From: Candidatus Polarisedimenticolia bacterium
Lineage (GTDB): Bacteria; Acidobacteriota; Polarisedimenticolia; Gp22-AA2
Reading direction: 5' to 3'
Length of the DNA stretch: 64,000 nt
NCBI GenBank assembly: GCA_036001465.1
Contig: DASYUH010000007.1
Location: 1-64,000 of the forward strand
The notes under the pieces are model-generated. The model was not told the origin of the DNA and did no database searches. It was given only the letters and a program-made list of their open reading frames with translations. Every line of letters begins with the position of its first letter. The first letter of the stretch is position 1. Shown piece after piece: positions 6,596 through 27,882 of the stretch. Position numbers and translations under genes: made by a program.

Positions 6596-8599
6596 TCACT
6601 CCGGCACCGATTCGTGGGACGACAGGTTGCCCAGAAGCCACGCGAGAGCCGCCGCCATGCCCGGCACCGCCAGCGACAGGATTCCCGGGGCGCCGATCTC
6701 ACCGGAAGGAACCAGGAGCTGGCCATGCAGCAGCAGGCTCAGCCAGGCCGCGCACCAGACGATCAGGAGGAGGGCGCCGAACAGGGTGCGTCCCCCCACC
6801 ACGTGGCCGCCTCCGGGCACGGCGAGACTGAGCAGGCGCTCTCCGATCCAGACCCGCCGGCGGTGGCGCACGACCTGATCCATCTTCTGGGTCTTGATGT
6901 TCGGCGCCAGACCGTCGCGGAGGATGAAGAGGTGCATGCACTGGGAGCAGTGATCGGGGTGCTTGGTGGGGACCTGGCAGCGCCGGCAGAAGGCGCGGCC
7001 GCAGCGCCGGCAGCGCCGGGTCGTGGCCGCGCGCGGAGCGATGAGAAGCCCGGGCAGGAGCAGCGTCAGGGCCAGGCCGGTCCCGCCGGCGAGCGTTCCA
7101 GGCGCCCGCAGCGCCCGCGCCCATGCGGCGCGCAGGCCCTCGTCCAGGCGAAGCACGAACACCCTCTTCCAGATCTCGGAGGATGCGTAACGGACGTCCA
7201 TGGGCGTCCTGCGGGCGCGGCCCTCGTTGCCCTGGGCCAGGAGTGTGGTGACCAGCGCCTCGTCGACCCGGCGGGCCGCCTTCAGCTCCTGTTCCGCCGA
7301 CTCCAGGTGGAACGCCTCGAGATGCGCCAGGTGGCTGTTGTAGTGCGCGATGGCGAGCGAGGGATCGGCCTCGCCCGCCTTCCGATAGAAACCCTGCGCA
7401 ATGGCGAACTCCTGCCGCAGGGTGTGAAGGTTCGCCAGGTTCACCATGGCACGGGCGTGCCGCGGGTCGATCTCGAGCGCGCGGCGGTACATGGCCATCG
7501 CCTCGTCAAAGCGCCCGGCCATGCGGTGCATCGATCCGAGGAGGAACGGGAACATCGCGTCATCCGGGTGGGACGACGCGAGCTTTCGCAGGGCCTGCTC
7601 GTCCTGCAGGTCGTAGCCGCCCCGGGTCGAATGGAGGAGGGCCCGGGCTCCCGGATCGACGGAGGTCCCGGCCGCCCATTCCATCAGGCAGCCCGCCGGA
7701 CCCGCAGCGAGGAGGAGGATCAGGGCGACGCGGGTGACCATCCTCTCGGTCCTGCGCAGGTACGGGAACATCAGGGCCGACCAGGCCGCCAGCAGCCAGA
7801 CGACCGGCCCGAACACCAGAACGGGCAGGGCCAGGATTCCCCAGCCGACCAGGTGGGCCGATTCCTCCGTCAGGATTCCCGGGAACCGCTCCCGCAGGTC
7901 GTGAAAGAACGACGGCGCGGCCTTCAGACAGATCAGGAGGAGCGCCGCCGACGTTCCGAAGCAGAGGGCGAGGTACAGGATGAGGAACCCGTTCCCGCCC
8001 CGCTGATACATCGAGCCGACGTCCCCGATGGCGACCGCGAGAGCCGAACCGGTCTGGCGCACGGCGCCGCGCAGGTCGCGATCGCCCCGGAGGAGGGCCA
8101 GCGCCAGTCCCGAATGCGCCGCCGTCAGGGACGGATCGAAGCTCCCGGCGAGACGGAAGCCCTCCTCGGCTTTGCGATATTGACCCTCGTCGAGATCCTT
8201 CCGCGCGTCCGCGAGGAACGCGCCGGCGATCTCGGGAGCGGCGCGCAGGCCTTCGCGCTGCATGAACTCGAGGGCCGCTTCGATCTGGCGCGCCGCCTCC
8301 GCCGTCTCTCCATGCCGCACCAGCGCCCGCTGCTTGAACCACAGGTCGGCGATCACCTCGCGCGCGTTGACGCCGTCCTGGGGAGACCCGCCGGCGCCGA
8401 GCGGCACGGCGGCCGGCCCGCTCTCGACGGGCGGCGCCACGGTTCCCGGATCCTGGATCAGGGGCCGGTTCGGATCGATGACGATGACTTCAGGTTCCTG
8501 GGCTCGAGGCGCGACGACCAGCCCGGCCGCCAGCAGCCCCGACGCCAGGGCCAGCCAACGGCCTGCTCGCCGCGTCATGCAGCGTGGACGCCCGGCCAT
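6596..8599 (-). CDS. TPR-repeat membrane protein with a cysteine-rich zinc-ribbon-like segment
   Basis: 667 residues. A signal sequence (about residues 10-30) precedes a Pro-rich linker and helical TPR-like repeats (YRKAEEGFRLAGSFDP). Several membrane helices follow, then further TPRs (AMAMYRRALEIDPRHARAMV) and more membrane helices at the C-terminus. A cluster CRRCGRAFCRRC...HPDHCSQCMHLF between membrane segments looks like a treble-clef or zinc-ribbon. An alternative ATG at 8578 gives a cleaner signal peptide. It sits six bases from the DUF4388 gene, so the two are probably cotranscribed. Its role is unknown; protein assembly at the membrane is a guess. Confidence 0.7.
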   Translation of the reverse strand: MAGRPRCMTRRAGRWLALASGLLAAGLVVAPRAQEPEVIVIDPNRPLIQDPGTVAPPVESGPAAVPLGAGGSPQDGVNAREVIADLWFKQRALVRHGETAEAARQIEAALEFMQREGLRAAPEIAGAFLADARKDLDEGQYRKAEEGFRLAGSFDPSLTAAHSGLALALLRGDRDLRGAVRQTGSALAVAIGDVGSMYQRGGNGFLILYLALCFGTSAALLLICLKAAPSFFHDLRERFPGILTEESAHLVGWGILALPVLVFGPVVWLLAAWSALMFPYLRRTERMVTRVALILLLAAGPAGCLMEWAAGTSVDPGARALLHSTRGGYDLQDEQALRKLASSHPDDAMFPFLLGSMHRMAGRFDEAMAMYRRALEIDPRHARAMVNLANLHTLRQEFAIAQGFYRKAGEADPSLAIAHYNSHLAHLEAFHLESAEQELKAARRVDEALVTTLLAQGNEGRARRTPMDVRYASSEIWKRVFVLRLDEGLRAAWARALRAPGTLAGGTGLALTLLLPGLLIAPRAATTRRCRRCGRAFCRRCQVPTKHPDHCSQCMHLFILRDGLAPNIKTQKMDQVVRHRRRVWIGERLLSLAVPGGGHVVGGRTLFGALLLIVWCAAWLSLLLHGQLLVPSGEIGAPGILSLAVPGMAAALAWLLGNLSSHESVPE

Positions 8600-19528: not shown

Positions 19529-19605
19529 TGGTCGGGGCGAGTGGATTTGAACCACCGACCACCTGGTCCCGAACCAGGTGCGCTACCAGGCTGCGCTACG
19601 CCCCG
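19529..19605 (-). tRNA. tRNA-Pro (anticodon CGG), reconstituted at the element junction
   Basis: 77-nt cloverleaf: acceptor CGGGGCG with CGCCCCG, discriminator A, CCA encoded. The anticodon loop TTCGGGA on the CCTGG/CCAGG stem gives CGG. Bases from the anticodon loop to the 5' end belong to the 42-bp repeat also found at 27841-27882, so the 5' half is shared with the integrated element. Upstream DNA is the element's int gene. Confidence 0.97.
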
Positions 19606-19608
19606 ACT
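19567..19608. repeat. Left attachment site (attL), 42 bp
   Basis: Covers the tRNA-Pro(CGG) anticodon loop through its 5' end plus three upstream bases. It is identical to 27841-27882. The preceding and following bases differ at the two copies, so the repeat is exactly delimited. Confidence 0.93.
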
Positions 19609-19637: not shown

Positions 19638-20786
19638 TCAAACGGTACCAAGTGCATTACCATATAGCTGCCAGTCAGAATCGAGCGCCCCGGCTGCGGC
19701 TTCGGCCGTCTGTGGCAGCGCGCCCAGATAGTGCCGCTCGAATACGTCAACCGTGTTCCCCGTCATCTGCGCCATCACCGCGACCGTAAATCTCCCCGAC
19801 GCTGCCAGCCGTGTAGAAAAAGTATGGCGGCAGGTATTGAACAGGTCCGGGTCAAGCTCGAACTTTTCCGTGACTGCCTCGCGCACCCTGCGCAGCTCGT
19901 CGCGAGGGTCAATCCCCTTGCCGTCTGGCCCACAGAAAACCAGGGAATCCGCCTTGATGGCGCGCGGCCTTCTCCCGAGGATCTGAGTCAGGCGAACGCT
20001 CAGGGTCAGCGGGATCGTTCTGAGCCCCCCGGTTTTCCCAGACAGAACGTGGATCTGATTAGTCCGCCGGTCAATATCCTGCCAACGAAGGGCCAGGATT
20101 TCGTTTAACCTCATCCCAGAATAGAGCGCCCACTCTACCATGTCTTTATAGAGCGGCGGAAGAGCGGCCAGGACGGCGGGCTCAATCTCACCGGGCAGAA
20201 GAGTGATCCGCCTTTTCCCCGGCTTAGGCGGTCGCTTGAATCCGACCAACGGGTTATCGAGCCTCAGGCCGCGGTTTCCCCTTGCCCACAGATAGATCCC
20301 GCTCAGGGCGGTCAGTTCCTTCCGGATGGTATTGTCGCGGACCTTGCGCTCCCCTTCCGCATCCCTGCGCGCCCTGCGCTGCGCGACGTAGGCCGTCAAA
20401 TGCTCCGGCCCGATAGCCGCCGGCTGCATCTGCCCGAAAAACGCCCGGAGCGGCCCGGAAATGTCGGCATAGTAGGCCGTACCGCCCCGGGTCGCCTTGT
20501 TCGCCAGGAAATCATCTAACAGGCTTCCGAAGGTTGCCCCGGTCGGTCTGATCCCCCGTAGCTCCTGGCGGATTACCACGGGGTTATGCGTTCCGGCCGC
20601 AATCTCGTTTTCGATTCGCAGCCTGAGCGCCTTGGTAGCTTCTTCGCTCGACCCGGACCGGAACCTGTGCCGCTTGGCGATTGCCTTGCCAGTCGGCCCG
20701 AGTTTCGGCTTTCCCTGGTCGTCCAATTCCAGGCCGTGGAAATAGTCGATCCACCATTCGCCCTTGCGTGGACTGTAGATTCTCAT
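19638..20786 (-). CDS. int: Tyrosine-recombinase integrase of the element
   Basis: 382 residues from ATG 20786, which overlaps the upstream stop (ATGA). An arm-binding-like N-terminus is followed by a core-binding domain (GSLLDDFLANKATR...) and a catalytic domain. Arg226 (YSGMRLNEIL), a Lys at 251 (SGKTGG), Arg320 (NTCRHTFST) and the Tyr nucleophile at 353 (ERHYLG) are visible. Asn317 stands where family members usually have His, and Asn344 (MTGN) where they have His or Trp. The gene ends 32 bases from the tRNA 5' end and points at it, and its last codons contain a TTGACA that could drive the tRNA. Confidence 0.93.
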   Translation of the reverse strand: MRIYSPRKGEWWIDYFHGLELDDQGKPKLGPTGKAIAKRHRFRSGSSEEATKALRLRIENEIAAGTHNPVVIRQELRGIRPTGATFGSLLDDFLANKATRGGTAYYADISGPLRAFFGQMQPAAIGPEHLTAYVAQRRARRDAEGERKVRDNTIRKELTALSGIYLWARGNRGLRLDNPLVGFKRPPKPGKRRITLLPGEIEPAVLAALPPLYKDMVEWALYSGMRLNEILALRWQDIDRRTNQIHVLSGKTGGLRTIPLTLSVRLTQILGRRPRAIKADSLVFCGPDGKGIDPRDELRRVREAVTEKFELDPDLFNTCRHTFSTRLAASGRFTVAVMAQMTGNTVDVFERHYLGALPQTAEAAAGALDSDWQLYGNALGTV

Positions 20787-20956
20787 CCCCTGCCCCCTTT
20801 CCGTTTCGCCCGTTCCTTGTCCCATCTTGCCCGTGCAGCCCTGCGTGCGCTCTCCCGTCTGTGCGCCGCAGTCAACGCCCTCTTGCGCGCCTTGCCGCCC
20901 TTGCTTCCCAGCTTTCGGAACAGCTCCAGGATCTTCGGATCTCGAATCTTTGTCAT
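20783..20956 (-). CDS. Small basic GGKAR-type protein, possible excisionase or regulator
   Basis: 57 residues: MTKIRDPKILELFRKLGSKGG followed by KARKRALTAAHRRESARRAARARW and a lysine-rich end. This GGKAR...LT..R.E.AR.AARARW pattern recurs in small proteins beside integrases in high-GC bacteria. Its last codon overlaps the int start, so they are one operon. A role in excision or int control is inferred from position only. Confidence 0.65.
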   Translation of the reverse strand: MTKIRDPKILELFRKLGSKGGKARKRALTAAHRRESARRAARARWDKERAKRKGGRG

Positions 20957-21094
20957 GCCTGGATCATAATGCGAGGCCGCTACGCATGTCAAGCCACATT
21001 GCCTCCGTGATGTCCCTGATTGCAGCCGTTGTGCTTGTTGTGCGTAGTTTGCAAAGAATTGCACTAAATACCCGAAATGCGCTTCCTTGGGCCT

Positions 21095-21126
21095 AACGTG
21101 ACTCTATTGGTCAAACGCGACTCTAT
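21095..21126. promoter_or_regulatory. Two tandem 13-bp repeats in the divergent control region
   Basis: AACGTGACTCTAT (21095-21107) and AACGCGACTCTAT (21114-21126) match in 12 of 13 bases and begin 19 bases apart. They lie in the 281-base gap between the leftward int operon and the rightward sigma/rep operon, where an element regulator would be expected to bind. Confidence 0.5.
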
Positions 21127-21237
21127 AGCGCCATTTTGTCTATGAGAATCAACGCACGCGGACAAATCTTCACGCCGATGGAATTTTGATCGTCGCGCGC
21201 CTTGACGACGCATTTTCGCGCCGCGATATTGGCGGTC

Positions 21238-22389
21238 ATGAGCTACGGCAGATCGTGGGCGTCGTGGTACCGCGAGGCGATCAAGTGGTATCCGATTCTC
21301 CCGACCGTCGAGCAACGGCGATTGGCGCGGAACGGGCAGATCGATCGGATCATCGAATCAAACCTTCGCTTCGTCCTCGCCATCGCGAAAAAGCGCGGCG
21401 GATGGTACGGCCTATGGATCGGTGACGCCGTGGGGATCGGGAATCTCGCCATTGTCGAGGCCGCCGCGCGCTACCGCCCGGAGTGTCGGGCCACCTTCAC
21501 CACCTACGCCAAGGAATGGATCGAGGGGGCGATTAAGCGGGCGGTGTTGAAGCGGAGCGAGATCGTACCGCATGAGATCCAGCCCCACATTCAGAGCGAC
21601 GGCGAAGGGGACGCCGACCGGGACGGGCTCAGTCCATTCGAGGCCGCTGTCTCCAGCAAGATCGATCCTGAGCCCGAGACGATGCAGCCGCATTCAATAA
21701 CCCCAGACCCGGAGCGCGAGCTGCAGCGGGTCGAGCGGATGGCCGAGATCCGTATGGCCGTTCAAAGGCTCGAATGGCCAGAGCGCCACGTCATTGATAT
21801 GCGGTACGGCCTGGACGGCGGGGAGGGCCTGACGCGTCTGGAGGTTGCAGAGCGGTTATTTCAGATCGACGGACTCGTCGTCACGGAGGACGGAGTCCGG
21901 CAGATCGAAAAGCGAGCGCTCAAGCGTCTGCGGAAGCATGGCGGCTGGCGAATGCGGAAACCGAAGGAGCCGAGACCGCCGGCCAGGGTGCCGAAGGAAT
22001 TGCCATGCGAACATACCAGGAACGATCGGCATGGGGACCGCTGGCCGTGGCCGTTCGCCTGCCCCGTCCTCAAGTACCCGTTCCGCTACATGGAGGACGA
22101 GCTAGAGCGGACGCCGGACAGACCGAAGCCCCCAGCCCCGCCCGTGATTTGGATCGCCCGCTACGGTCACTTAATTCACTTGCACTTGGAGAGCGGCAGG
22201 CCGTACATGATCCCATCAGGGAACCTAGGCGGGCCGTCCTGGCCGTGGCGGACCACCAGGGTAAGAAAGACGCACGAAAGAATCCCGAAACATCGTTGCG
22301 GCCGTCATATTCAAGGTATACGCGCAATCACCGAACGGCCGGCGCGGGCCAAGCTCAAGAGGATCAAAGTGTGTTCATCAGCGGCATGA
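21238..22389 (+). CDS. Element-encoded sigma70-family sigma factor with a long C-terminal extension
   Basis: 383 residues from ATG 21238 (a TTG at 21202 is possible). Residues ~35-102 match sigma region 2 (IIESNLRFVLAIAKK, then FTTYAKEWIEGAIKRAV). After an acidic linker (~120-165), residues ~172-233 match region 4 (LEWPERHVIDMRYGLDGGE and GVRQIEKRALKRLRKHG), with a short insertion between the two helices. Residues ~240-383 are a Pro/Trp/Arg-rich tail with scattered Cys and His (PCEHTRNDRHGDRW and KHRCGRHIQG) unlike any sigma domain I know. First gene of the rightward module; likely transcribes element genes. The family is secure; the target promoters are unknown. Confidence 0.85.
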   Translation: MSYGRSWASWYREAIKWYPILPTVEQRRLARNGQIDRIIESNLRFVLAIAKKRGGWYGLWIGDAVGIGNLAIVEAAARYRPECRATFTTYAKEWIEGAIKRAVLKRSEIVPHEIQPHIQSDGEGDADRDGLSPFEAAVSSKIDPEPETMQPHSITPDPERELQRVERMAEIRMAVQRLEWPERHVIDMRYGLDGGEGLTRLEVAERLFQIDGLVVTEDGVRQIEKRALKRLRKHGGWRMRKPKEPRPPARVPKELPCEHTRNDRHGDRWPWPFACPVLKYPFRYMEDELERTPDRPKPPAPPVIWIARYGHLIHLHLESGRPYMIPSGNLGGPSWPWRTTRVRKTHERIPKHRCGRHIQGIRAITERPARAKLKRIKVCSSAA

Positions 22390-22571
22390 ACGCGGCCGAT
22401 CTACTACTCCCCTGCCTGACCTGGGCAGGCGATGCGGTAGTCCGGCACGGTGACGGCCGTATCGAGATGATCCGCGACGTCATCACCAAGGGCGCAACGG
22501 AGAGCGGCTACGCCTTCAAGGTTTCGTTTAAGCCGGCCAAGAAACTGCGCAAGAGACGCCGACATGATTAA
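22386..22571 (+). CDS. Small unknown protein coupled to the sigma gene
   Basis: 61 residues beginning MNAADLLLPCLTWAGDAVV and ending in a basic LRKRRRHD tail. Its ATG overlaps the sigma-factor stop (ATGA) and its end overlaps the next start by eight bases, which supports real translation. No family recognised. Confidence 0.65.
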   Translation: MNAADLLLPCLTWAGDAVVRHGDGRIEMIRDVITKGATESGYAFKVSFKPAKKLRKRRRHD

Positions 22572-23529
22572 CGGCCGGGCCCTAGTCGAGCTGGACATGG
22601 CCGCGATGCTGGAGGACGGCATCCCTGAACAACGGTTTGATCTCGCCGGCCTTCTTGTTCAACGGGCATTCACGTATCTGACCGGCGCGCCCAAGCAGTT
22701 CAAGACCTTCCTTGCGTTGGCTTGGTCGATCTGCCTTGCGAGTGGGGAACCATTCGCGGGGCGAGCGGTCAGCGGGGATCACCGCGTCCTGTTTATCGAG
22801 GCGGAGAACTGGAGGCAGATCCCCAAGCGATTCGCGCAACTCTGCGCCGGTTACGACGTAGATCATCGAACCGCGCTGAAGTCGATCCGCTTTTTCAAAC
22901 CAAATCGACCCCTGCGCCTGGAGAACGAGGCCCACGCGGCGGAATTGATCCAGATCGCGAAGGGCTGGGGCGCGACGTTGACCGTCATCGACTCGTTCGT
23001 GCGCGTGCATGGCCTGGACGAGAACTCCTCGAAGGACATGGCGCTGCTCGCGAACGTTGGCCTGCTCCCGCTCCGCGATGAGGCCAAGTGCGGGATTCTC
23101 GCGCTGGATCACACGCCGAAAGGTCACTACGGCAAACAGCGAACCGGCGGAGAGCAAGTCCGGGGGAGCGGAGAGAAATTGGCCGCGGCCGACGCTCACC
23201 TTGACGTTGACGTGCATCGGAAGGATGGGCAGACGGTGATCGAGACCAAGGTTGAATCGTTCCGGCTTGCCGAAGAGCCCGAGGATTCCTTGTACCTCCG
23301 ACCGCATCACACGCCGAACGGCGGCCTGTGGTTCGCCAAACGCGGCGCGCCGGAGTGGCTGTCCAGAGGCAGGCGGCCGACGCAGAGGACCGGGGCTGCG
23401 GAGATCATCAAGGCGGCCAGAAAAATCAATCCTGAGCTGTCCCAGGCGCGCGCAATAGACCTTGCCGTGGCGGCCGGCTATACAGAGTCAACCGCGAAAC
23501 GAGCGTACAACCAAGAGACAGCCGCGTAA
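22564..23529 (+). CDS. RepA-like AAA ATPase (AAA_25 family), probable replication helicase
   Basis: 321 residues of RecA-fold ATPase. Walker A is GAPKQFKT (residues 41-48) and Walker B is LTVIDSF (about 139-145). LALDHTPKGHYG resembles the sensor segment of RepA hexameric helicases. The C-terminal ~60 residues look like a helix-turn-helix (LSQARAIDLAVAAGYTESTAKRAY). RepA-type ATPases unwind plasmid or phage origins, and repeats right after this gene could be such an origin. Confidence 0.82.
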   Translation: MINGRALVELDMAAMLEDGIPEQRFDLAGLLVQRAFTYLTGAPKQFKTFLALAWSICLASGEPFAGRAVSGDHRVLFIEAENWRQIPKRFAQLCAGYDVDHRTALKSIRFFKPNRPLRLENEAHAAELIQIAKGWGATLTVIDSFVRVHGLDENSSKDMALLANVGLLPLRDEAKCGILALDHTPKGHYGKQRTGGEQVRGSGEKLAAADAHLDVDVHRKDGQTVIETKVESFRLAEEPEDSLYLRPHHTPNGGLWFAKRGAPEWLSRGRRPTQRTGAAEIIKAARKINPELSQARAIDLAVAAGYTESTAKRAYNQETAA

Positions 23530-23634
23530 GGTTCAGAAGGTCCAGAAGTCTAAATGAACCTTTCGGACCCTGTTCATGCGGGCGGCTCGAAGGGTCCAGA
23601 AGGTCCACCACTCTACAGAGTGGACCTTTGGACC
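23530..23634. repeat. GGTCC-rich iteron-like cluster after the RepA-like gene
   Basis: Direct 9-mers: GGTTCAGAA and GGTCCAGAA abut at 23530-23547, and GGTCCAGAA and GGTCCACCA abut at 23593-23610. Inverted copies TGGACC follow at 23621-23626 and 23629-23634, the first making an imperfect hairpin with 23602-23610. The rest of the gap to 23773 holds no recognisable gene. This fits an origin or operator but is not proven. Confidence 0.6.
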
Positions 23635-23773
23635 TTCGGCCCCGTGACAGGGCGGTGTGATTCAAGGCCACAAACCGCGCGCGACGCGCCGCCCAAGCTG
23701 AAAACGAACTCGGATCGTCTGCCCCGGACAGTCCCATCCCGCGCACTTGCTACCATACCAAGGGTAACTATTG

Positions 23774-24316
23774 ATGCCAAAAGACTTGACAGATCCAACT
23801 GCCACACCGTTGCCAGACATGGTCCCGACTGACCCGCCCGAACCTCCCGCCAGAAGCGAACCAGACGCCGACCTGACCCCGGCCCCCCCAGCCGCTGACG
23901 CCGAAACCGATCAATCGCCCGCGAAACTTTTGTCAGATCCGGGAAAGTCGCGCCGACTGGCGAACCTGAAGCCCGGCGACAACGAGCATGCCAGGGCAGC
24001 CCGGGAAGCGAAGCGGGCCAGACCCGCCAGACCCGAGACCCTTACTCGCCAAGACGTGCTCGACATTCTCAAGCAGATCGCGGCCGATGATGACGAGTCT
24101 GGGGCCTACAGAGTCGCGGCGGCCCGGTTACTGCTCACTCCAGAAGCCCAGGCCGGTAATTGGTCCTGTCCGCTTCCATGCTGCCAAGGCCGGCCATTCA
24201 AGAGCGTCACGGCATGGATCGAAGCGATGGGGGCAGCGGACAAGATCGCACCAAGAGAGATTTCTAAGAGTGTTGACGAATGGCTAGAGGGCCTCGACTC
24301 AAAGGCCGAAAACTGA
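23774..24316 (+). CDS. Unknown element protein with disordered N-terminus
   Basis: 180 residues. The first ~85 are Pro/Asp/Ala-rich and probably disordered. Then comes a helix LTRQDVLDILKQIAADDDE and a segment NWSCPLPCCQGRPFKSVTAW with a CxxxCC cluster. The ATG at 23774 is preceded by AAGGGTAA. No family recognised. It is the first gene after the iteron-like cluster. Confidence 0.6.
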   Translation: MPKDLTDPTATPLPDMVPTDPPEPPARSEPDADLTPAPPAADAETDQSPAKLLSDPGKSRRLANLKPGDNEHARAAREAKRARPARPETLTRQDVLDILKQIAADDDESGAYRVAAARLLLTPEAQAGNWSCPLPCCQGRPFKSVTAWIEAMGAADKIAPREISKSVDEWLEGLDSKAEN

Positions 24317-25007: not shown

Positions 25008-25274
25008 ATGGGCGGACCCTGGAAACTGGAGGGCATGGGACTCGATCCTCCACCGGCGCCTGAGCCGGAGCCAGAATTGCCGACACGGCCGCCGGATCGA
25101 GTGCGCCCCGGAGTAGCCGTGCAATACACCTGGACGGAAGGCTCGAACGTGAGGAACCTTAGCCCGTTGGATCGTCATCTGCTCGGCTTCAGCTTCGGAG
25201 ACTTCACACAGACGCACCCGCACGACGCAGCGCCTAGAAGGCTTTGGTTGCCATATCAAGGAGATCGATCTTGA
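25008..25274 (+). CDS. Small unknown element protein
   Basis: 88 residues starting three bases after the previous stop. A Pro/Glu-rich beginning is followed by VAVQYTWTEGSNVRNLSPLD. Its stop overlaps the next start. No family recognised. Confidence 0.5.
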   Translation: MGGPWKLEGMGLDPPPAPEPEPELPTRPPDRVRPGVAVQYTWTEGSNVRNLSPLDRHLLGFSFGDFTQTHPHDAAPRRLWLPYQGDRS

Positions 25275-25735
25275 AATTCAAGAACTTCATGAAGGGCGCT
25301 ATTGAGTCGCCAACGCCCGCGCCGGCCGGCTACATCCCGTTTTCAGCCGACCGCATGCCGACGCGCAAGCAAGTCGAGGCCGCACTGGCCGAACGGGAGC
25401 CGTGTCCGCAGGAGCTTGGTCTAGCCGACGTGTGCGATTGCCGGAACCACTACGGTGAGCCCATTCACGGCTTCAGAGAGTATGGTCAGGGAATGGGTCG
25501 ATTGACTGGTGACGGGAGCAACATCTTTCCGCCGGGATCTGCCTCTGCAATGCAGCATGTTGACGTCCAGCATGTCAACGCTCAGATAGTGGCTGCGGTG
25601 GAGGCCGCACGGGAGGCGCAGGATCGGATCGATGAACGAGAGGCAGCTGCGGCAAATGCTCCGATGGCGTTGGCGGAAGCGGAGCAGGCTTTAGCCGACG
25701 AAATGCAACGTCTGCGCGAGGAGGCCGGGGGCTAG
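25271..25735 (+). CDS. Unknown element protein with C-terminal coiled coil
   Basis: 154 residues from TTG 25271, chosen because AAGGAGA lies upstream and it overlaps the previous stop (TTGA). The N-terminal half has a cysteine pair (VCDCRNHYGEP). The last ~65 residues form a long Ala/Glu/Gln helix (AAVEAAREAQDRIDEREAAA). The overall look is phage-like, but no family was recognised. Confidence 0.55.
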   Translation: MKFKNFMKGAIESPTPAPAGYIPFSADRMPTRKQVEAALAEREPCPQELGLADVCDCRNHYGEPIHGFREYGQGMGRLTGDGSNIFPPGSASAMQHVDVQHVNAQIVAAVEAAREAQDRIDEREAAAANAPMALAEAEQALADEMQRLREEAGG

Positions 25736-25745
25736 ACGGAGAGTC

Positions 25746-26675
25746 CTACCATCTGATCAGTAAAAAACTCTCGGCTACGAAGATTGCAAGTGTGATGGCC
25801 ATGAATACCTTGTAGCCCAATCCTGGACGTTCAAACAGTGCTCTGAGGGACCCATCAATTTCCTTATGTCTCTCCTCTGGTGCCTTGCCATCTGCCGGAA
25901 GTGTCATGATGAGCGCCCGCGCTTTTGACCTGCTCTCTGGAGTCATGTGATCAAATACCTTTTCCAAAAACTCAAGGTAGGCTGCCGTGCTGGCGTTCTG
26001 GGGCACTCGAATTATCCCAGCCCGATAAAGCTGAACGATCTTTCTGACTGCGAAGTATTCGCTTGCGGCGGCCATCTGGAAAAGGGTCGCCAGGGCAATG
26101 AGGAATGCAATGCCCGTTCGAGACCGTGGGGGCTTCGTCTTGGTATTAAGGCCAGTCGTCTTGTCTACTAGAGTCAAATCCGAGATACCAGCAATTCGAG
26201 CCTCCGCCTTGAAGGTCGGCACGGTACCGGACACCAGGACTCCGAATTGAATCCGCTCGTTTGGATTGAGGAGAGGAAAGGCGATTTCGACTCTGCGACC
26301 AACTGGGTCGAGCATGTGCGTATAGGCCAAGTTTGACGGGGTTTGGCGTACCTCACGGAATTCGAGTAAGTCTCCACCGGTCCCAAACGTGAGGCGGGGT
26401 TGCGAGATTACGTCATGGTCGAGAATTGCAGATCGGCCCGAGTTCACTAGCGCAAACTCCATCAAGGACACGCTGGGTATAGGCTTTGTGTCATAGAAAA
26501 TCTTGAGGCGCTCAAAATCTTTGGAGCCTTCAACAAGCGTGGTAGTTGCCAGGTGTTGAAGTTCGATCGATGCCCTCGACTTGTACCACTCCATTACGAT
26601 GGGTGTAATGATGGCAGCCGCAGGGAGCCCGACACCAACTAACAACGCCCAAGGCCGTATCTTCGTGAGGGTCAT
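25746..26675 (-). CDS. AT-richer membrane protein, element cargo
   Basis: 309 residues, clearly lower in GC than its neighbours. One N-terminal membrane helix (about 8-27) is followed by a ~170-residue predicted outside beta-rich domain (FALVNSGRSAILDHDVI, RRVEIAFPLLNPNERIQFGV). A second helix near 195-215, a cytoplasmic helical part and a final C-terminal helix follow. It is transcribed against the rightward genes, as cargo genes of islands often are. No family recognised; an exclusion or defence role is only a guess from position. Confidence 0.7.
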   Translation of the reverse strand: MTLTKIRPWALLVGVGLPAAAIITPIVMEWYKSRASIELQHLATTTLVEGSKDFERLKIFYDTKPIPSVSLMEFALVNSGRSAILDHDVISQPRLTFGTGGDLLEFREVRQTPSNLAYTHMLDPVGRRVEIAFPLLNPNERIQFGVLVSGTVPTFKAEARIAGISDLTLVDKTTGLNTKTKPPRSRTGIAFLIALATLFQMAAASEYFAVRKIVQLYRAGIIRVPQNASTAAYLEFLEKVFDHMTPESRSKARALIMTLPADGKAPEERHKEIDGSLRALFERPGLGYKVFMAITLAIFVAESFLLIRW

Positions 26676-27070: not shown

Positions 27071-27364
27071 CTACGTCTTACTGGGCCAAGATCGCGGACC
27101 CATGATGGTCTCGTACTGTGTTTTGAGATCCCGCATTGCTGCCTCCACGTCTGCAACAGAGATTTTGCCCGCGCTCATCCCCCTGATCTTCTCGAAATGC
27201 TCCTCCAGGCTGGGCCAGCAATCGACGGCGAAAAATGGAGATCTGTATTGCGGGTCCTCCACCCCGAATCTCGCGACATCGGCCCCGCGCTTGATCAGGT
27301 GACGGCCGCAGCCGCACTCCGGGGTGCTGTCCGTCTTGTCGAACACCACATTGATCTTTTTCAT
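27071..27364 (-). CDS. Unknown element protein with CxC motif
   Basis: 97 residues from ATG 27364, with GGAG eleven bases upstream. Starts MKKINVVFDKTDSTPECGCG; PECGCGRH could bind metal. The C-terminal half is helical (SVADVEAAMRDLKTQYETI). No family recognised. It is the last gene before the right attachment site. Confidence 0.6.
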   Translation of the reverse strand: MKKINVVFDKTDSTPECGCGRHLIKRGADVARFGVEDPQYRSPFFAVDCWPSLEEHFEKIRGMSAGKISVADVEAAMRDLKTQYETIMGPRSWPSKT

Positions 27365-27840
27365 GATTATCCACTCCGCCTTTGTCCATAGCTTGGTTGA
27401 TGGGTCGGTTTGGACAGACGGGGGGTGCGCGGGTACTACAAAAGAAGTGCGGTCGGCCTCATGGTTGACATCTGTACCACCGGGCACCTTGGCGCGTCAA
27501 GCTCTAGCTGTTGCCCTTCCCTGAAATCTCCAGAGGGGAGGGTCCAGGGTGCGGGATTGTGTGCGGGGGCCGAGCGGGTCTCGATGGTCCTGCCTTCGGG
27601 GTGCTGTGTGACTGCTTTGGTGCCTCTCCTGGCCGGCCTTTCTTACTCCCCCAGACTAGCAGCGCTCCCGGCCCAAGGCCAAGTGCGATTGGGTACCAAG
27701 TGCGCTGCCACATAGCTGCCAACCAGGGAGCCAAATTAGGCGTATTTACACCAAGTAGCCTATTTTAGCTTTAATAATAACGTAAGCCGTGACAGCAAGT
27801 TACGCCAGGGCAAGAAAATAGCGCACCCGCGGGCTATCGC
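27365..27840. other. Right end of the element without an intact gene
   Basis: About 475 bases. They hold the integrase-tail remnant (27692-27721) and an AT-rich stretch (27735-27830) with short inverted repeats such as CGTAA...TTACG, a plausible place for integrase arm sites. No intact reading frame with coding character is seen. Confidence 0.5.
27692..27721 (-). pseudogene. Remnant of a second integrase 3' end
   Basis: These 30 bases match the end of the resident int gene (19644-19673) in 26 positions. Read in frame they give WQLCGSALGT against WQLYGNALGT. Three of the four changes are synonymous or conservative, so this looks like a diverged copy of an integrase tail and not a recent duplication. 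The frame continues a few codons to a TAG. No upstream integrase sequence remains. Confidence 0.65.
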
Positions 27841-27882
27841 TCCCGAACCAGGTGCGCTACCAGGCTGCGCTACGCCCCGACT
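27841..27882. repeat. Right attachment site (attR) with orphan 5' half of tRNA-Pro(CGG)
   Basis: Identical 42 bases to attL. On the minus strand it is the tRNA 5' end through the anticodon loop, with no matching 3' half beside it, so it cannot make a functional tRNA. Confidence 0.93.

Follow-up and report, generated by a model that had tools for sequence, protein, structure and literature searches.

Sigma factors of the ECF41, ECF42 and CorE/ECF238 groups carry an extra domain after sigma4 (PMC8999054). CorE-like sigmas require both a CXC motif in the sigma2-sigma4 linker and a cysteine-rich domain, and the ECF sigma EcfP, which is without the acidic residues of region 2.2, is inactive until phosphorylated (PMC8999054). 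Phage sigma factors are encoded in about 13% of the phage genomes in VOG (PMC9429907). Sigma factors are known from many phages but are unexpected in 8-kb integrative islands, and the literature on satellites and small islands offered no direct precedent. Here, we describe a sigma-70-family protein of 383 aa, P0001, encoded at positions 21238..22389 (+ strand) of a 64,000-nucleotide stretch of DNA from a Candidatus Polarisedimenticolia bacterium, which as a whole is referred to as the window.

The reading frame at 21238-22389 is intact and has strong GC3. Translation of the ORF, profile and PDB matches, AlphaFold2 and Foldseek were combined to characterize its product. The preliminary description had called sigma70 regions 2 and 4 clear, and both exceed their Pfam gathering cut-offs: residues 39-107 (21352..21558, + strand) match Sigma70_r2 at 3.3e-8 (33.7 bits against a cut-off of 24), and residues 177-233 (21766..21936, + strand) match Sigma70_r4 at 1.5e-7 (31.3 bits against 24.1). 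In addition, PHROG 351 (phage sigma factors) covers residues 19-238 at 1.8e-25, the NCBIfam model TIGR02937 matches at 2e-21, and SigA and RpoS chains were the sequence matches in the PDB. With an alignment of 33 viral sigma sequences, AlphaFold2 gave pLDDT above 90 for most of residues 11-110 and 165-233 and modelled the linker 115-144 as disordered; run with no alignment, it gave a pLDDT of 36 and no usable model. Sigma-S and sigma-32 headed the Foldseek list of the model against the PDB, and the prediction has the sigma2/sigma4 fold. P0001 is a genuine sigma-70-family homologue, as these family matches, the model and the structural search together establish. Its layout is compact: region 1.2/2 is followed by an acidic linker and then by region 4.

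The sigma gene lies within an integrative element. An exact 42-bp repeat occurs at 19567..19608 (attL), where it covers the 5' half of a tRNA-Pro(cgg) gene (19529-19605, - strand), and again at 27841..27882 (attR). Alignments with congeners stop at attL, the left-flank match in same-genus genomes ending at the tRNA end, and in the same-genus genome G002 the site is empty, the tRNA being joined directly to sequence equivalent to 27883 onwards. From the exact repeats and the empty site, the element is 8,274 bp long and inserted in the 5' half of tRNA-Pro. Integrase, att repeats and an empty site in a relative are thus all present, and the sigma is element-borne, as first described. The tyrosine integrase is encoded at 19638..20825 (- strand; PF00589 at 4e-16, PHROG 1 at 8e-41). 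In front of it, at 20783..20956 (- strand), lies a gene for a 57-aa basic protein, its ORF re-started at ATG 20956; the protein is Lys/Arg-rich (GSKGGKARKRAL...) and may be a DNA-binding regulator of the divergent promoter. Close to attR, 35 nt at 27692-27726 share 83% identity with the integrase gene at its 3' end (19644-19678), a match that points to a vestige of a related element, whether earlier or in tandem.

Among the ORFs of the element none matched a head or packaging gene, and this gene content, with an integrase and replication genes, would fit a phage satellite or a prophage in reduced form. The accessory ORFs are orphans; those at 23774-24316 and 25244-25735 had no relative in 41 genomes of the class. 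A 309-aa membrane-protein-like product with hydrophobic N-terminal and C-terminal stretches (25746-26675, - strand) had no family match and is possible cargo. Also near attR, a 98-aa ORF (27074-27367, - strand) with a ECGCGRHLIKRG motif had no PADLOC match and lies on the strand opposite to the sigma operon.

Close homologues of P0001 were found neither in genome contigs nor in IMG/VR by pattern search and tblastn, and 396 genomes of the phylum contained just ordinary sigmas, the best about 33% identical over regions 2-4. A relative of the element's helicase is found in genome G008, where a primase-helicase encoded by a prophage-like element shows 45% identity to it in its C-terminal part; the integrase of that prophage-like element is 41% identical to that of the window, and a terminase small subunit and a head protease are encoded there too. 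No sigma was found in this related element. The other sampled loci with a relative of the helicase neighbour were likewise without a sigma, save for one chromosomal RpoD, which agrees with the initial view that a sigma is unusual in such islands. Another prophage of the class (locus L046) encodes a 316-aa protein with a helix-turn-helix-like end (LTDRQKALLGLRDQGMTYAQIAARL) at 7509-8459 (- strand), upstream of excisionase-like and AAA_25 genes. P0001 is a real but isolated oddity.

The sigma gene is the first of an overlapping trio and so leads the replication module, as had been proposed. Its stop codon overlaps the ATG of a 61-aa ORF (22386..22571, + strand; ATGA at 22386-22389, with GTG 22370 as an alternative start), which in turn overlaps, at 22564, the start of an AAA_25 RepA/DnaB-like helicase domain protein (22564..23529, + strand; PF13481 at 1e-24). 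A separate GC3 signal marks the 61-aa frame (p = 0.008). Two putative sigma-70-type promoters were placed in the divergent region, where four promoter-like matches were found against 2.3 expected, a number near chance. One, TTGACA-18-TATGAT (20963..20992, - strand), is a consensus match only (11/12) and lies 6 nt before ATG 20956; the other, the weak TTGACG-17-GATATT (21202..21230, + strand), lies 7 nt before the sigma ATG, and its 9/12 matches are near chance level on their own. Both placements would fit leaderless starts by a housekeeping-type polymerase. Two exact AACGYGACTCTAT boxes, 19 bp apart (21095..21126, + strand), lie in the same divergent promoter region as a possible operator and are the sole two matches in the window, even when 2 mismatches are allowed.

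Downstream of the helicase gene, the gap at 23530-23773 had been suggested as one to test for sigma-directed transcription. Direct and inverted repeats of the GGTCCA type with a strong hairpin were found there instead (23528..23640), and they fold well as single-stranded DNA (z = -5.2). The stretch looks like an iteron-type origin rather than a sigma target. In the G008 element, GGGTCA repeats of either orientation immediately follow the primase-helicase gene (locus L045, 8850-9260), in parallel to the arrangement in the window. Our search for a shared sigma-dependent promoter motif, or a candidate family of target promoters for P0001, found none.

Within the sigma core, positions of both region 2 and region 4 that are generally involved in contacts are replaced. 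E. coli residue numbers and contact roles (E407, W433, Q437, E585, R586) are used here as general background. In region 2.2, DLIQEGN has become DAVGIGN, with G66/I67 in place of Q/E, I67 as the E407-equivalent and D63 as the sole residue kept among the beta' contacts, so that the conserved core-binding residues of this region are not retained. In region 2.4, the equivalents of W433 and Q437 are E93 and G97. The E585/R586-equivalents in the -35 helix of region 4 are D218/G219, and the turn of the helix-turn-helix has six extra residues. Forty columns were at least 80% conserved across 63 homologues; P0001 mismatches 18 of them and ranks first of the 64 sequences, in a comparison biased by a viral sample that was fetched with region 2 peptide patterns and therefore favours conserved sequences. 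The viral sigma L104 is nearly as deviant (17/41 conserved columns mismatched).

The replaced 2.2 residues lower the claim of normal core binding and leave the sigma-70 homology standing; the region 2.2 motif is not strictly defining, since EcfP is also without the acidic motif. The promoter-contact residues differ from those of housekeeping sigmas, as expected of another specificity. The proposal that the island brings its own RNA polymerase specificity is weakened, because the core-binding patch and the -10 and -35 contact positions are all replaced.

The C-terminal tail (residues 236-383, 148 residues; 21943..22386, + strand) is without a homologue. No match was found in Pfam, NCBIfam, PHROGs, PADLOC or the PDB; in Pfam there was none at E below 1, and neither a SnoaL_2 nor a TPR domain was recognised. 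Tail-only searches of phages, plasmids, IMG/VR, the PDB and the 396 phylum genomes returned just weak matches of the composition type. All sampled chromosomal and viral homologues aligned through region 4 end 6-24 residues after it, which makes the extension exceptional in the sample. AlphaFold2 gave no confident fold: residues 238-383 have pLDDT below 50 almost throughout, and the short helix and beta hairpin modelled there are of low confidence. The tail has 32 K+R against 13 D+E and a pI of 10.9, and contains 4 dispersed Cys, 8 His and 6 Trp. It is basic and predicted to be mostly disordered. Of the novel Cys/His/Trp-rich tail announced in the preliminary description, the novelty and the unlikeness to known sigma factors stand, as the tail has neither a family match nor a database relative; the enrichment in Cys, His and Trp is moderate, and Pro/Arg-rich and basic describes the composition better.

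Three explanations concern this tail. In the sigma frame, GC3 is in excess over residues 236-300 and again over 301-340 (p = 0.001 each, permutation), so that the tail seems to be true coding sequence as far as about residue 340. Over residues 341-383 (22258-22386) the coding signal is absent in every frame, and these last 43 residues may be drift. The tail could then be largely neutral, an ordinary phage-type sigma having drifted into downstream sequence so that the two sigma domains alone matter. Its orphan status, its low complexity, its disordered model and a run of 148 open codons, no great rarity at this G+C (p about 0.01), agree with this; the clear periodicity of residues 236-340 and the overlap of the sigma stop codon with the next start (ATGA) speak against it, and we consider it unlikely. 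A frameshifted neighbour, or an error in the assembly, is a highly improbable source of the tail, even though a +2-frame ORF (22005-22571) that includes the 61-aa gene is also open through the tail and the codon signal fades past residue 340: this +2 frame has no GC3 signal before 22386 and the sigma frame has it to about 22257, and the in-frame signal at residues 236-340 argues that the tail is no such neighbour. Finally, the tail had been thought able to bind metal, and C257, H259, H265 and C275 might form a single four-ligand site, in which case P0001 would be a sigma of the CorE/CorE2 kind that senses metal through its tail. No two Cys are spaced as CxC or CxxC, the sigma2-sigma4 linker is without Cys, four dispersed Cys fall short of what CorE needs (PMC8999054), and the C257-C275 site has no confident predicted fold; we give this explanation hardly any weight.

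The reading we prefer, for which the chances seem to us even, is that P0001 is an alternative sigma which the element encodes and which is made early, with a specificity that has diverged. It probably still acts on the host polymerase on behalf of the element, with altered contacts. The promoter match and the overlapping genes suggest that the host RNA polymerase would read the sigma gene early, together with the 61-aa ORF and the RepA-like helicase gene. P0001 would then bind the host core polymerase and guide it to promoters that differ from housekeeping ones, in all likelihood those of its own operon or of downstream genes of the element, and this redirection would couple replication with later gene expression. 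In the weakest step of the scheme, the basic disordered tail might help through non-specific contact with DNA or polymerase, or might keep the sigma inactive. The domain matches, the confident core model, the GC3 signal, the operon overlaps, the delimited element and the promoter match before the sigma ATG favour such an alternative sigma; the replaced 2.2 residues, the highest number of mismatches in the comparison with the 63 homologues, and the want of a target promoter family and of a close homologue weigh against it. In the chief rival, P0001 is a regulator descended from a sigma, which keeps the fold but no longer works as a sigma in the normal way; it would repress or activate the replication operon through region 4 and the tail, or act as a weak polymerase decoy. 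The replaced core-binding, -10 and -35 positions (I67, E93, D218/G219), the six extra helix-turn-helix residues, the 18/40 mismatches and the two operator-like AACGYGACTCTAT boxes upstream point that way; yet both domains model confidently and score above the family cut-offs, some functional alternative sigmas are likewise highly diverged, and the mismatch comparison is biased by the pattern-fetched viral sample. We regard such a regulator as possible but doubtful. It is quite unlikely that the added basic tail took over the engagement of polymerase or DNA from the replaced contacts, P0001 now reading exclusively the promoters of the element. If active as an alternative sigma, P0001 would show how a very small element captures the host polymerase and would offer a natural system, small in size, for testing which sigma contacts are replaceable; if inactive as a sigma, it would illustrate how a sigma can become a regulator of a different kind.

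Among known systems, the phage sigmas of PHROG 351 and TIGR02937 have regions 2 and 4 arranged as in P0001 and likewise occur in mobile elements. The 33 aligned viral sigmas are 19-27% identical to P0001, and the ones whose alignment extends through region 4 stop no more than about 17 residues past it, without a tail of the P0001 type. The compact chromosomal group 2/3 sigmas L002 and L068 of related genomes are 32-33% identical and have the region 1.2 motif, regions 2 and 4 and a reduced region 3 in common with P0001, but they keep the 2.2, 2.4 and 4.2 positions, have no tail and, as far as seen, lie in no mobile element. ECF41, ECF42 and CorE sigmas share a C-terminal extension after sigma4; theirs is SnoaL-like, TPR or Cys-rich with a linker CXC, whereas the P0001 tail matches none of these and its core resembles groups 1-3 rather than ECF. 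As a candidate CorE-like metal-dependent sigma, P0001 fails on both features, its linker being without Cys (no CXC) and its tail, with 4 dispersed Cys in 148 residues, not being cysteine-rich. Similarly, EcfP (ECF43) is without the acidic sigma2.2 residues needed for core binding but has a phosphorylatable STTA motif, and the matching stretch of P0001, LWIGDAVGIGN, contains no Ser or Thr. The sigma regions of MzaA, the sigma of the MZA defence system, also match, P0001 scoring far below the family cut-off of the MzaA model, and none of the neighbouring ORFs tested matched a PADLOC model. Given the extended ECF sigmas (PMC8999054) and the common phage sigmas (PMC9429907), a protein of this kind is already known; what is new is the combination, in which a strongly diverged protein with an orphan tail belongs to a small tRNA island.
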